This document shows, one piece after another, positions 16,828 to 22,450 of a stretch of DNA of 26,943 nucleotides. Both the position numbers and the translations under genes were made by a program. How positions within the stretch are numbered: the stretch's first letter is position 1; every line of letters begins with the position of its first letter. The notes beneath the pieces were generated by a model. It saw only the letters and a list, made by a program, of their open reading frames with translations, was not told the DNA's origin and did no database searches. Origin of the DNA: Paramacrobiotus metropolitanus (Eukaryota > Tardigrada > Eutardigrada > Parachela > Macrobiotidae); NCBI RefSeq assembly GCF_019649055.1, contig NW_026570620.1:1-26943 (forward strand), read 5' to 3'.

Positions 16828-17829
16828 TTACAGTGTTTTACCCAGTTTCTTCAACAGTAAGCTCCTTGCAGCAGAACCATCTTTTCCAAAGCGCCTAAAT
16901 TTAGAAACACTTGATTGCAGGACACCCCTGATGTCTTCCACCGTCCACGCAATAATAATCGGATCCAATGCAAACTGACACGCAGGCAATATATCCGCGC
17001 ATACGACTACCAAGACTGCCGGGACCTGCATATCGAAGAAAACGGCTAATATCCCAATTATCTTTGTGGGTATCAAACAAACCATGATACTACTGGTCAG
17101 CGCCGTCAATATCCAAAAAGCGTGCCGGTTCTCTTTCGCTCCACTTCCATATTTATGGCTGCTGAGCGCATGTTTAACCGTTTCTGCTTTGCGGAAGCTT
17201 CTTTTGCCGGTATTCATGGTTTTCCATAGTAAGTACGGATACGATAGTAGAACAACGAACACCGGGGCAATGTTGATCCAGATTTTGATGAATTTGCTAA
17301 GTACCGGCTGCGCTTTACTAACCACTACGCACTTAGCTGCGCAATTCATATTTGGTCGGAAATACAACGCGTCGATTAGCAAATAAGGCGCCAGCAGCAC
17401 ATGGCAGTACAGAAGCAGCAACAAGCAAAGCAGAAACGCCAGTTTTCGTGTGTGTAAATTTCGATAACTAATCGGGAGACTCAACGCCCAGACGCGATTG
17501 ATCGTAATCATAAGGTGCGCATGCACAGTCAGAGCACTGCCCATTTGTTCCAGGTAGATTCTAATATTGCACAGTACGGATGTCAAGTACCAGCGCTGCT
17601 GTAGCAGTTCCAAAACGATCAGAGGATCCTCCAGTGTTATGAAGATATTAGCGGACAACAGATTCATGAGATAAACGGCAAACGGATTACGCAGGTCTCG
17701 GTGTGTCACGAAGAGCAATAACAGGCATCCGTTAAGTAGCAGCTTCACGGCAGCAAATACGGCTACGGACACAGCCGAGACGCTGAGATCAGAGTAGTTG
17801 GTTGTTGTATTGGACATGTTGGACGGCAT
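16828..17829 (-). CDS. Class A orphan GPCR, intact, atypical TM6
   Basis: Single exon of 333 aa, ATG at 17829 (MPSNMSNTTTNYSDLS; three sequons NMS, NTT, NYS). Landmarks are TM1 LLNGCLL, TM2 NLLSANIF (Asn61 at 2.50), TM3 Cys87, NRVW 111-114, ECL2 Cys167, TM5 SYPYLLW, TM6 CLIP (251-254) and TM7 DPIII (289-293). The usual CWxP toggle Trp 6.48 is Leu here, while most relatives in the window keep CWTP. The DPxxF/NPxxY aromatic is also lost. It may signal differently or be drifting, although the frame is fully open. Its closest relative is the truncated 15460-15966 copy, then the element-split pseudogene at 18425-22450. The upstream TATA position is altered to TATGAAG. Confidence 0.86.
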   Translation of the reverse strand: MPSNMSNTTTNYSDLSVSAVSVAVFAAVKLLLNGCLLLLFVTHRDLRNPFAVYLMNLLSANIFITLEDPLIVLELLQQRWYLTSVLCNIRIYLEQMGSALTVHAHLMITINRVWALSLPISYRNLHTRKLAFLLCLLLLLYCHVLLAPYLLIDALYFRPNMNCAAKCVVVSKAQPVLSKFIKIWINIAPVFVVLLSYPYLLWKTMNTGKRSFRKAETVKHALSSHKYGSGAKENRHAFWILTALTSSIMVCLIPTKIIGILAVFFDMQVPAVLVVVCADILPACQFALDPIIIAWTVEDIRGVLQSSVSKFRRFGKDGSAARSLLLKKLGKTL

Positions 17830-18424: not shown

Positions 18425-18992
18425 TATTCTTTACGGTAACTGGATTGCATAGCCGCCCGAACGTGTTTTAGTCTCAGTGTAAAATAATAATCATCTAATC
18501 GAAAACCAGTTGGCAAGACGGCACTATATTGACCCACACGACTGTTACGGACGTTTCGGACACCCTTGCATCAAAAACACGATTACAATCCCGATGACCT
18601 TTATAGGGTCCAACAGGTCAGCATATTGCCGGTCAGCGCTGTCAGTATCCAAAATACAAAAAAACATGGTCAAAAGAAGCGACACAGAGCAGCGCTCAAC
18701 CCCTCACCACAAGGCAGCCTGATTAGGCATCAGTGCTTTCGCTATGTACCTATGTTCTCTTCCAACTGGGCACTTTTCCAGCGCCAGCTATTTCCGCTCG
18801 ATGAAGGTGCGTTTTTCCGGTAGTCATAATTTTTCTTAGCAAATGCGGATACGGTAACTATATAACAAACGCCGGAGCAATGTTGACCCAGATTCTTAAG
18901 AACTTGCTAAGGATCGGTTGCGCTTTATTGACCACGTCGCAGTCGGTTGCTTAATTCATATTCTGCCGAGAATACAGTGCGTCCATTATCAA
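18425..18992 (-). pseudogene. GPCR pseudogene, 3' half, split by a transposon
   Basis: Read leftward, it begins with MDALYSRQNMN at the end of TM4/ECL2, then a TAA. It continues through KAQPILSKFLRIWVNIAPAF (TM5), a TAG, a decayed TM6, and VNIVPSCQLVFD (TM7) with further stops. It corresponds to residues about 153 onward of the intact 16828-17829 receptor. The 5' half of the same gene lies at 22254-22450, on the other side of the 3.26-kb element. The last four bases (18989-18992, TCAA) are the target-site duplication. Confidence 0.8.
18989..18992. repeat. Left target-site duplication TCAA
   Basis: TCAA directly precedes the left TIR end (TTGTAGCC) and recurs at 22254-22257 after the right end (GGCTACAA). 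Removing the element and one copy restores alignment with the intact receptor paralogue over this codon region. ATCAA (5 bp) is an alternative reading if the right end is one base shorter. Confidence 0.7.
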
Positions 18993-19215
18993 TTGTAGCC
19001 GGCAGATCTATTGGCCTGTTGACTGTTGGCGAGCCCGGCAGAAAAGTGGTTTTTCTCCCATAGATCTGCCGAATTGCTCCCACAATTCTGCCGACTCGAC
19101 CCTATGCATTGCCTATGGGAACTCCAATAGATCGGCCGAACCGGCGCAACAGTGAGACTTGACACTTCTAATGAGCGCAAGCAGCTGCTGTATGCATAGC
19201 GCGGGCAGGCTGCAA
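18993..19215 (+). repeat. Left terminal inverted repeat
   Basis: About 223 bp, matching the reverse complement of 22033-22253 over its whole length with scattered substitutions and small indels. It contains several copies of an AGATCTGCCGA-like motif in both orientations, so the TIR is itself internally repetitive. Confidence 0.8.
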
Positions 19216-19602
19216 CGTCAGATGCAGCTGCCTCGGCACACTTTATCGACAATAAATCAGAGAATTAAGCGCGCGATCTGTATTAATGTCAAGCTTAATT
19301 TTTGCCAATTAGGTGAGTATGCTTATTACTGTGAACTGTGAAGTGAGGCACTGGACCACCGGCATCATTCGTGAAGATTGCAAGACGTAATCAAAAATCT
19401 GAATGTACATGTAGTTACAAGTTATTATTATTCGCAGTTGTATTTTCTAATTAATCTCACAGACTATGTATAATAAATTGTGTATTCTATCCTTTGTCTT
19501 TACTTAAAATTTTTTATGATATAAAAATTAATAGTTAGCCTTGCTTTGCAAGACTAAACTTAAACCCCCAAAACATCAAAGTAGTTCGGAAACAACGTTA
19601 CC

Positions 19603-19755
19603 ACCAGTAGATTGGCCGAACTGCGCCAATAGCCCTGCCGACCCGATACTATGCCTTGTCTATGGGAACTCCAGTAGATCTGCCGAACATGCGCAAAAGT
19701 GAAATTCGATATCTCTGTTGAGCGTGAGCCGGCAATAGCGCGGCCGGGCTGCATC
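19603..19755 (+). repeat. Internal partial third copy of the TIR
   Basis: In the same orientation as the left TIR, this stretch repeats its inner two thirds: GCCGACCCGATACTATGCC, TATGGGAACTCCAGTAGATC and GAGCCGGCAATAGCGCGG. The outer end (TTGTAGCC...) is missing. It suggests a second, nested or rearranged copy of the element. Confidence 0.7.
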
Positions 19756-19772
19756 ATACGTAATATTGAAGA

Positions 19773-19823
19773 AGTTGGTTTTATTAAGTACAAACAAGTT
19801 GTTTGTACTTAATAAAGCCAACT
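19773..19823. repeat. 51-bp near-perfect palindrome
   Basis: The two 25-base arms (19773-19797 and 19799-19823) are inverted copies with one mismatch, around a single G at 19798. There is essentially no loop, so it would extrude as a cruciform. It directly follows the internal TIR copy. Confidence 0.8.
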
Positions 19824-20282
19824 GCGGCGATTTTCCTAAAAATTGAAACAAGTATCTGTATGTTAATAGTAGTAATGGTTCAATAAACTTTTCACCTTGT
19901 AGAATATTAATTAACATAATATCATCTCGACAAAGTTTTGTTGATGTATCAAAGTCAATCTTGAATTCATAATCCTGTTTTGGGTGCCCACTTTCTGCTT
20001 GACATGACATGCTGAGCTGACAAAATGTTGATTATGTATTGATAAATTTTAAGGTTTCCTCCTGGTTTATTTTTCTGCCCACATTTTTATCAGCGCGGAC
20101 ATATAGTGTTATTTGTGTAGTGGCTACTGCAGATAGGATGAAAAGTGAATTTATGACTTTTGTTGACTCAAACGCATTTACTAGGACTCAGAAGGGAATT
20201 TTTGTTAACTTTCCATCCCGACTCAGAGTCTACCAGGTGCTAAATTTTTCCAACCTGAAGAATGCTTGCAATAAATGCTGGT

Positions 20283-20428
20283 GGTACTTGGGTCACTCGT
20301 TCACCTAGCGGGCTGTGTGCTCTGGACAGTAACGGTACTTCGGTCACTCGTTCACCTAGCGGGCTGTGTGCTGTGGACAGTAACGGTACTTCGGTCACTC
20401 GTTCACCTAGCGGGCTGTGTGCTGTGGA
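20283..20428. repeat. 51-bp minisatellite, about 2.9 copies
   Basis: Direct repeats start at 20283, 20334 and 20385. They are nearly identical, with differences at only a few bases, and the third copy is cut at 44 bases. Because 51 is a multiple of three, two plus-strand frames stay open across it. I regard those frames as chance rather than genes. Confidence 0.85.
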
Positions 20429-21132
20429 AATGGTTTTTGCTGATTCTGTACGGGAGAGCTGTGTTCGTGTATCACATTATACAGCATTTTTTGTGGTAAT
20501 AACGATTTCGAATGTAGATACCGTATTATTATTCCGTATTAAACGGAGTAATTTACGGACCGTATATGCTGATTAATTAATTACTTTCCTTAGTTTTGCT
20601 CGGACTGCAATGAAGGGTCAGCTTGTTTGAACCACTACTATGGCCAGTTTCTTTTACAGCTGCCTTTATTGAGTGTTCTTATTCTTGAGCCACTGTTTTT
20701 GAGTGCTTTAAATTTGAAGGACTTTTTTAAACGAAGCCATTATAAACTGCATCGTTTGTATTATGTGTGTTATGCTAACTGGCTTTTCTAGTTTTGTAGA
20801 AGAAAAAGTTTAAACCTTTTAATTCGCTGATCTAAAAAGGTACTGTATCAGTTTAAATTTACTGATTTTTTTGCTCCATGCAACCGGACTCTGAAATTGT
20901 TTTCAAGGTCACCTTGAGCTTTCAGCTCAACCGGCACTGGCGTCTGTGCACGGGAGCCGGAGCGGATAATTACCAAAACAAAATGCATGTGACAGAGTTT
21001 CCAGACATGCTGAATCGAATGGCGATAGCAGTTTTTCGATTAATTTTTGGTTTGTTCTGATCAGATCGTACGGGGTTTTCCGCTGTAATATAGATCTTTA
21101 CCTTGATAAACAATGGCAGATAATATTAACTG

Positions 21133-21200
21133 GTAACTACACTGTACATGCAAAGTAACTACACTGTACATGCTAAGCAAAGTAACTACACTGTACATGC
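21133..21200. repeat. Three copies of a 19-bp repeat
   Basis: GTAACTACACTGTACATGC occurs at 21133-21151, 21155-21173 and 21182-21200, separated by short AAA/TAAGCAAA linkers. The last copy runs directly into the hairpin at 21199. Confidence 0.85.
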
Positions 21201-21232
21201 TGGTCGGCAAGCACTTGTGCTTGCCGACCAGC
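21199..21232. repeat. Perfect 16-bp-arm hairpin
   Basis: Arms at 21199-21214 (GCTGGTCGGCAAGCAC) and 21217-21232 are exact inverted copies around TT. It may be a structural end of a nested element, placed as it is between short tandem repeats and the retroelement remnant. Confidence 0.85.
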
Positions 21233-21303
21233 TCGGTATATTGCCTTCACATCAAGCGCTGTTTTTGCTTAAGAACTGTTTGTCGCTGCCGAAGTTATTG
21301 TAG

Positions 21304-21983
21304 CTTCTTAGAACTTCACCGTGCTGGCGATTCCCGGACGAGCTAAAGAAATTCGATGAGGGCATCCGAGTGAAAGCACAGCAGCTGACCAACGTAACAA
21401 TGTCCAGTTTAGTATGGGAGCAAGCCTCGTTACCTACGAAATTTGGAGGCCTTGGTCTGATCGACGCAGCGGATGTCGCACTAGCCGCTTACGCCTCCTC
21501 GGTATACGGAGCGGCTGATATGGTGGGCAAGATCACAGGCAACGCCACTATAAAAGACACTGCCAATCAGCTAACGGAAGTATGGACTGAACGTTTCTCC
21601 CTGGAACCCCCGCGGACGGAAAGCCGCCACTTCCAGTCGGTCTGGACAGCTTTGCAGCATACCCAGACAGCATCCCGTATGATGGAGAATGCCGACGTAT
21701 TTACCTCTGCTCGATTGTTGGCTGCATCCTCACCGGAATCGCGTGCCTGGTTTTCTGCTTTGCCGGTATCTATATTCGGAAATTTACTGGAGGATGCCCA
21801 CTTACGAGTTGCCGTAGCACGACGGCTGGGAGCGCCAGTATTCAGACGCATGTGTGTCGGTGCGGCACTACCGTAGACAGTCTCGGACACCATGGGCTGG
21901 TTTGCAAGCTGGCGAAAGGTAGGCACGGTGTCCACGCCGTCTTGAACGAAGCAACCAAGCGAGCGCTGAGTTCGGCCCCTTGA
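21304..21983 (+). pseudogene. Reverse-transcriptase-like retroelement ORF, C-terminal remnant
   Basis: The frame opens after a TAG at 21301 and reads LLRTSPCWRFPDEL, then ASLPTKFGGLGLIDAADVA, SARLLAASSPESRAW and VAVARRLG. It stops at 21876. A shift near 21845 recovers the Zn-finger-like CRCGTTVDSLGHHGLVC and then NEATKRALSSAP before TGA at 21981. As I recall, this motif series (LLRxSP, LPxxxGGLGL, ARLLAxSxPxS, CxCG...HGLxC) is typical of the region C-terminal to the polymerase in mobile-element reverse transcriptase genes of marine invertebrates. The polymerase core is missing. It lies wholly inside the TIR element, just before the right TIR. Family placement is moderately sure; exact clade unknown. 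Confidence 0.65.
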
Positions 21984-22032
21984 GTAGGGCAGTGGCCTGT
22001 ACAATAGGTTTAGGCGGCTGTATGGTGTATGC

Positions 22033-22253
22033 GATGCAGCTCTGCCGTGCTATTGCCGGCTTGCGCTCAACAAAAGTATCACATTTCTCTGTTGTTCTGG
22101 TTCGGCTGATCTATTGGAGTTCCCATAGGCAATGCATAGGGTCGGGTCGGGTCGGCAGAAGTGTGGGCGCATTTCGGCAGATCTATGGGAGGAAAACCAC
22201 TTTCCTGCCGGGCTCGCCAACAGTCAACAGGCCAACATGTTTGCCGGCTACAA
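22033..22253 (-). repeat. Right terminal inverted repeat
   Basis: About 221 bp and the inverted partner of 18993-19215. It has a small GGGTC duplication near 22140-22155 (GTCGGGTCGGGTCGG) that the left copy lacks. It ends at GGCTACAA, directly before TCAA. Confidence 0.8.
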
Positions 22254-22450
22254 TCAACCACGACCACACCAGCACATGGCAATATACTAACACAAACAAA
22301 CACAATATGAGTGTCAGGTTTTTCGTGTGACGATTTCGATAGTCAATCGAGAAAGTGCCCAGAGGCGATGGTGATAAAAAAGTCAGTCAGCGCAAAGTCA
22401 GGAATTGCGTAAATGCCGGGTTGTTGCAAAGATCCATAACAGGTATATGT
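22254..22450 (-). pseudogene. GPCR pseudogene, 5' half, split by a transposon
   Basis: Read leftward, this has YLLWIFATTRHLRN (end of TM1 and ICL1) and then a deletion removing TM2 and most of TM3. A degraded RLWAL segment and YRNRHTKNLTLILCLFVLV plus YCHVLV (ICL2-TM4) follow, in shifting frames. It ends at the element boundary, where the same codons resume at 18988. The start codon and N-terminus are not recognisable beyond about 22450. It is closest to the 15460 and 16828 receptors (YRNLHTRKL, YCHVLLA). Confidence 0.75.

Follow-up and report, generated by a model that had tools for sequence, protein, structure and literature searches.

A transposon inside a tardigrade receptor remnant and its coding relatives with a Ginger1-type gene layout and CG-centred 6-bp target site duplications

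The length of the target site repeat serves to sort transposons into superfamilies. Ginger1 elements, in the part of their published description available to us, have TGTNR ends, terminal inverted repeats (TIRs) of 40-270 bp, a 4-bp repeat of CCGG or CCGT/ACGG and a length of 2.6-7 kb, and their transposase runs from YPYY through H2C2, DDE and GPY/F to an OTU or Ulp1 domain, with a PHD finger in one listed family (PMC2836005). The accessible part of a second source gives repeats of 4 bp for Ginger1, 4 or 5 bp for Ginger2 and 6 bp for Polinton, and a stagger that varies between 4 and 6 bp among integrases of this kind (PMC10045372). Here we describe a 3,259-bp non-autonomous element in a 26,943-nucleotide stretch of the tardigrade Paramacrobiotus metropolitanus (NW_026570620.1, positions 1 to 26,943 of the forward strand; this whole stretch is called the window). 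The coding relatives of the element have the known gene layout of Ginger1, while their 6-bp duplication and their greater length depart from that description. The element lies within the remnant of one receptor gene, with the following boundaries.

18994..22252, no strand: whole non-autonomous element, 3,259 bp, TGTAGCCGGC...GCCGGCTACA, its ends set by comparing 22 two-ended copies
18994..19182, + strand: left terminal inverted repeat, which pairs with the right end and has matches in the genome
22059..22252, - strand: right terminal inverted repeat, which pairs with the left end
18988..18993, + strand: left copy of the 6-bp target site duplication, ATCAAT
22253..22258, + strand: right copy of the 6-bp target site duplication, ATCAAC, matching the left at 5/6 positions

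The inverted ends pair at 86% over 196 columns (18992-19182 against 22059-22254) and the termini read TGTAGCC...GGCTACA, one base less at each end than the TTGTAG...CTACAA first proposed. On excision of the element and one repeat the flanks realign to the intact receptor paralogue with no gap at the junction (71%, 297 columns, 17202-17498). With two matching inverted ends, one clean insertion and flanks that rejoin to the paralogue, the original prediction of a long-TIR DNA transposon within one receptor gene is borne out. Its alignment of the flanks is likewise gapless at the junction, but cannot show TCAA as the repeat, since the 4-bp and the 6-bp models excise an identical 3,265 bases and the empty-site alignment is thus unable to settle the repeat length.

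Across the 22 two-ended copies, which came from an end pattern not asking for CG, perfect flanking repeats are found in 14 at a length of 6 bp, in one each at 2 and 3 bp, and in none at 4, 5 or 7-12 bp. Four further copies, the window's included, match at 5/6 positions and four at 2 to 4 of 6. As perfect repeats peak at 6 bp in the other copies, the window duplication is one of 6 bp with a single mismatch, ATCAAT/ATCAAC, in place of the 4-5-bp TCAA proposed. TGTAG is the start of 20/22 left ends and 21/22 right ends, the exceptions being in L001, C298 and L015. When the 18 copies with at least 5/6 matching positions are tabulated (C95b, L015, L017 and L018 fall below this and were dropped), CG stands at positions 3-4 of the repeat in 17/18 left and 15/18 right copies, against a genomic CG dinucleotide frequency of 0.049 (P = 9e-22 for 17/18). 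A target palindrome reaching beyond the CG core was also tried, and failed per site (P 0.15).

The family is widespread, all genome counts here being lower bounds. The left TIR of the window has at least 41 matches, its own included (40 of 109 candidates scored), so that the element is not the solitary sequence for which the original prediction had allowed. The end pattern occurs at 33 + 36 = 69 sites, compared with 2 + 1 = 3 for a reversed-pattern control. When one mismatch is allowed, CGNNTGTAGCCGGC occurs at 535 + 569 sites and its control at 372 + 350, so most single sites at this threshold could be due to chance. Exact CGNNTGTAGCCGGC sites, among the first 100 listed, include many inward-facing pairs. 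Ten small pairs (74, 74, 127, 127, 119, 141, 138, 366, 508 and 224 bp) have perfect 6-bp repeats in nine cases and a 5/6 match in one, and seven larger pairs (4.6, 5.1, 13.7, 16.5, 16.7, 17.5 and 17.7 kb) match at 6/6 throughout; L035, at first counted as single-ended, has both ends at a length of 224 bp, and its GGCGCT repeat is perfect. The 18 + 10 + 7 = 35 copies comprise 30 with perfect repeats and 34 with CG, 15 of the 17 added copies having come from a CG-requiring pattern and being uninformative on the CG preference for that reason. Copies with TGTAGCCGGC ends and the 6-bp CG-centred duplication span 74 bp to 17.7 kb, and four of the longer ones carry exons of an integrase-type gene.

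C19:171913-185640, 13.7 kb: coding element, TGTAGCCGGC at both ends, repeats 6/6
C78:365914-383391, 17.5 kb: coding element, TGTAGCCGGC at both ends, repeats 6/6
C19:441086-457736, 16.7 kb: coding element, TGTAGCCGGC at both ends, repeats 6/6
C11:1791161-1807706, 16.5 kb: coding element, TGTAGCCGGC at both ends, repeats 6/6

Taken as a set, the four elements supply exons of one integrase-type gene, the stretch of C11 that was read ending before any GPY/F segment was found. Where the gene was read there is a single exon order: a YPYY-like segment, an H2C2 zinc finger, the D-D core, the E part, the integrase C-terminal part, a GPY/F-like segment and Ulp1. The Pfam family rve (PF00665) is matched in C78 (E 1.4e-11), C11 (E 7.1e-12) and C19:441086 (E 6.8e-13), and Integrase_H2C2 (PF17921) in both elements tested, C78 (E 2.8e-11) and C11 (E 9.6e-9). 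Peptidase_C48 lies above the Pfam cut-off in C19:171913 (E 6.1e-5) and C78 (E 1.2e-4) and below it in L007, C43 and L029. In C78 the exon with the second D stops before GT and the next starts after AG in the same phase; counted by hand across this apparent GT-AG intron, 35 residues separate the second D from the E. Other parts were named by eye: the GPY/F-like segment, KLKGPA, is conserved in C19:171913, C78, C19:441086 and C43, and the segment HYPG...HYRLKNEKLYF ahead of the zinc finger was compared with the published YPYY pattern by eye only. Searches against solved structures were weak, giving TnsB for the rve piece (E 0.035) and yeast Ulp1 for the Ulp1 alignment (E 0.018). A second Ulp1-like domain lies upstream of the first (profile comparison probability 92%); its H, D, Q and C positions, which have a role in domains of the Ulp1 type, are in alignment. 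Between the two is an internally repeated region (30% over 247) that is not detectably Ulp1 (profile probability 0.4%). C78 owes about 1.3 kb of its length to a nested copy whose ends are related.

The association of integrase and Ulp1 extends beyond these elements. The rve exon was compared with the genome (150 of 995 candidates scored). Nine of its 12 best hits have a Ulp1 match on the same strand no more than 12 kb away, and those on C35, C135 and C1 do not. Two more diverged loci have the same exon order. At C58:168954-172635 rve passes the cut-off (1.1e-9) and Peptidase_C48 is below it (0.0042), and at C245:57286-61083 rve (1.2e-7), Peptidase_C48 (5.8e-4) and PHD_4 (1.4e-4) are all below it; element ends were not recognised in the stretches examined at either locus. 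The diverged integrase-Ulp1-PHD element on C245 (L069, C245:55300-63400) sits between inverted tandem arrays, one of which reaches the end of the stretch. The query with one resident Gypsy-like pol open reading frame (ORF) found no match in nine stretches, covering C19:171913 wholly and the others in part.

It is very likely that the window element, as a non-autonomous cut-and-paste DNA transposon, depends for its movement on a Ginger-kind transposase, of the integrase type, which relatives of 14-18 kb in the same genome provide in trans. The original prediction could name no superfamily; the coding relatives with their Ginger1-type gene layout supply one. For the mobilisation of the window copy, its chemistry and the route of capture we infer the following course. 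A transposase of the retroviral/Gypsy-like integrase type would recognise the TGTAGCCGGC ends and excise the element, the CA-3' ends would be joined to the target at two points, one on each strand and six bases apart with a CG dinucleotide at the centre, and gap filling would then produce the 6-bp repeat. Non-autonomous copies would have arisen by loss of the gene or by its replacement with inverted-repeat DNA and fragments of other sequences, and the window copy may have captured a piece of the ORF of a repeat, with a hairpin at one breakpoint.

Several observations weigh against this assignment. Between the window TIR and the ends of the relatives bearing DDE the likeness is confined to roughly the first 12 bases, and no copy with the long TIR of the window was found to retain DDE exons. 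As to the autonomous partner whose search had been suggested, relatives of 13.7-17.5 kb with integrase-type exons do exist, but from their sequences none of the four can be called intact: the D-D exons are absent from C19:171913, in which 0.2 kb stands in the place of 2.0 kb in C78, the Ulp1 matches contain stops (three on C11 and two on C19:443898), and C19:441086 has one stop in its GPY/F segment. Pfam gave no match for the GPY/F segment or, in C78 and C19:171913, for the PHD-like finger, which was likewise named by eye and whose relative in L029 is below the cut-off. Four of the 22 two-ended copies are without a convincing repeat. Finally, the target of the window copy has CA instead of CG on both sides. 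The aligned receptor paralogue likewise has CA at the insertion point, and it is therefore probable that this copy entered a non-CG site and did not lose its CG afterwards.

Two further copies connect the coding gene with the window's own TIR. C43 has one TIR of the window family, 89% identical to the left and 85.5% to the right TIR of the window, with AGCGCC flanking it and with GPY/F-like, Ulp1-like and PHD-like exons; it gave no H2C2 or DDE match, and as a truncated relative without a recognisable left end it also counts on the unfavourable side. In C210 (L007) both TIRs are present, the repeat CGCGCC is perfect and the gene is represented by Ulp1-like and PHD-like exons; over 2,455 columns this copy agrees with C43 at 99.6%. 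The Ulp1 matches of the window family are under the Pfam cut-off (L007 E 0.012, C43 E 0.017), which is a further weakness, and they align with those above it. Since C43 and C210 join the window TIR to the Ulp1-PHD part of the gene, these sequences support, without proving, descent of the window family from a Ginger-type element. Adjoining the truncated Ginger-type element on C43 are tandemly duplicated open frames with 70-78% DNA identity (L043, C43:618600-628599).

Compared with the published description of Ginger1, in its available part, the family shares TGTNR termini, long TIRs, introns and CG at the target centre, as well as H2C2, the DDE core and a GPY/F-like motif (by eye), followed in the gene of this group by Ulp1 and a PHD-like finger (PMC2836005). 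It differs from Ginger1 as set out there in having a 6-bp in place of a 4-bp CCGG/CCGT duplication, coding copies of 13.7-17.5 kb, which is at least about twice the 2.6-7 kb of Ginger1, and two Ulp1-like domains separated by a repeated region where Ginger1 has one Ulp1 or OTU (PMC2836005). Very long inverted-repeat forms and forms of 74-141 bp are also present here, for which no description was met in that part of the Ginger1 account (PMC2836005). The family has the Ginger1 gene layout, as compared by published description, and very probably works like Ginger1; both the 4-bp repeat and the 2.6-7 kb length were tried on it and neither was found, and it is therefore not filed as standard Ginger1. 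Ginger2/TDD-4, by the same partial source, resembles it in its TGTNR termini and integrase-type transposase and differs in its 4-5 bp repeat, AT-rich RTATAY target and lack of a GPY/F motif (PMC2836005). Dada, as far as the accessible text on it goes, has 6-7 bp repeats, some with GCG, but is without TIRs, targets small RNA genes and uses another transposase (PMC3706591). No literature report of Ginger with 6-bp repeats, or of Ginger in tardigrades, was met in titles or abstracts.

The 6-bp repeat is also the published length for Polinton, according to the portion of the source at hand (PMC10045372), and this raises the alternative that Polinton/Maverick integrases move these elements, or that the elements are themselves of that group. 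Large size and an integrase are further points of resemblance, and DNA_pol_B_2 is abundant in the genome (at least 169 matches, 79 of 507 candidates scored). Polinton/Maverick elements are of similar length to the coding copies. However, no PF03175 polymerase match, among those listed, falls inside the four coding elements, and, as in Ginger1, the integrase comes with H2C2 and occurs in the same elements as Ulp1 and PHD-like exons. We regard the alternative as very improbable and a role of Polinton integrases in moving the family as unlikely. With a Ginger1-type gene and repeats of Polinton length, these elements would be misfiled by repeat length alone. Many of the DNA_pol_B_2 matches elsewhere in the genome lie in open frames of 500-1,500 aa, and Polintons seem to be abundant.

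We put at about an even chance that a Ginger-type lineage shifted its target-cut stagger from 4 to 6 bp while keeping the CG centre, so that the geometry of the integrase complex would have changed within one superfamily, together with a lengthened tail of the protein, containing two Ulp1-like proteases, and the mobilisation of foldback, miniature and fragment-carrying copies. If one superfamily held both 4-bp and 6-bp repeats centred on the same CG, comparing the two would be a good way to ask what in the protein determines the spacing.

TIRs extend over 196 columns in the window element, 142 in C19:171913 and up to 1,044 in L004, a long palindrome whose TIRs are 98% identical, and some copies carry pieces of other genes, namely part of a Mutator-like element (MULE)-like gene in L021 and Ulp1 pieces in L016, L020, L027 and L007. 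Long TIRs, foldback forms and gene capture are typical of Mutator-like elements, whose target site duplication is 8-11 bp. A Mutator-like transposon would also fit the SWIM-like piece of a transposase-like gene in L021 (SWIM E 0.098, below the cut-off), of which L021:2851-3228 matches a longer gene on C86 at 95%. This piece spans only part of the gene and reads as captured, the elements that house relatives of the C86 gene end differently (GGCTAGGTAAG in C74 and C118), the C118 element (L032) carries the 9-bp repeat TGCTTTGAT, and none of the 22 two-ended copies has a perfect repeat of 8-12 bp. An assignment to MULE from the L021 piece was accordingly rejected on the ends of the gene's relatives and the 9-bp repeat in L032, and a Mutator-like origin is very improbable. 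Pfam recognised no family in the C86 gene, its MULE-like label being given by eye. Animal Pack-TIR and Pack-MULE elements are similar in being TIR elements with captured sequence, the difference here being the Ginger-type ends; a study of them in animals reportedly names Mutator-like and other TIR elements. By eye, the loci L030-L032 (contigs C9, C74 and C118) make up a MULE-like family that has a SWIM-like finger and TIRs rich in CATAA.

The interior of the window element is that of a non-autonomous copy. As the original prediction had it, no transposase is visible: nine queries with exons from the Ginger-type gene all fail to match the element, and Pfam gave no family for the longest ORF, nor for the longer related ORF L066:636-2027. 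The recognisable components are these.

19608..19755, + strand: inner second copy of the terminal module, 73-77% identical to the TIRs
20283..20435, + strand: three 51-bp tandem repeats
21208..21976, + strand: fragment of the long ORF of a high-copy repeat, 84% over 771 columns to the copy on contig C155
21199..21223, - strand: inverted copy of the first bases of this fragment, 24/25 bases, forming a hairpin at the left breakpoint

Inner repeats comparable to the first of these are present in other copies of the family. The fragment of about 770 bp matches the middle of the long ORF on C155, and the repeat from which it comes, which by eye is like a long interspersed nuclear element (LINE), has at least 150 genome matches (150 scored of 1,032 candidates). 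A repeat this common might have inserted into the transposon by itself, as a separate nested event, in place of being captured by it. We find this rather doubtful: the piece both begins and ends inside the ORF of the repeat, being cut within it on either side, and the inverted 25-base copy sits at its left breakpoint.

The insertion explains the splitting of one receptor-gene remnant in the window, the two parts of which are as follows.

18430..18992, - strand: C-terminal remnant of a seven-transmembrane receptor, paralogue residues 150-216 and 238-310, with in-frame stops
22255..22356, - strand: remnant of the same receptor across the insertion, paralogue residues 117-150

By tblastn the two flanks are contiguous at paralogue residue 150, the intact paralogue being a 7tm_1 protein (Pfam). 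The parts are thus consecutive, as had been described, but 'N-terminal half' was too generous for the one beyond the element, in which only residues 117-150 are recognisable. In-frame stops are present in both segments on the C-terminal side and absent from the short 117-150 segment. The interrupted receptor is a pseudogene.

Some other loci deserve mention. The 18-kb stretch C95:113506-131520 was considered as an autonomous copy and rejected, its flanks matching at 3/6 only and its ORFs being retroelement-like by eye. Pfam gave nothing above the cut-off for ORFs from two long copies, six in C298 (10 kb) and two in C330 (15 kb), and at the eight single-end loci L035-L042 no transposase was recognised by eye among ORFs of at least 120 aa. 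The copy at C330:22845-38044 (L011/L012) is a 15.2-kb member of the window-TIR family with two inverted arms of 6 kb that are 98% identical, and is either a giant foldback or an assembly artefact. At L041, about C76:36001-38566, long open frames that by eye resemble a non-ribosomal peptide synthetase lie beside a remnant of the TIR family.

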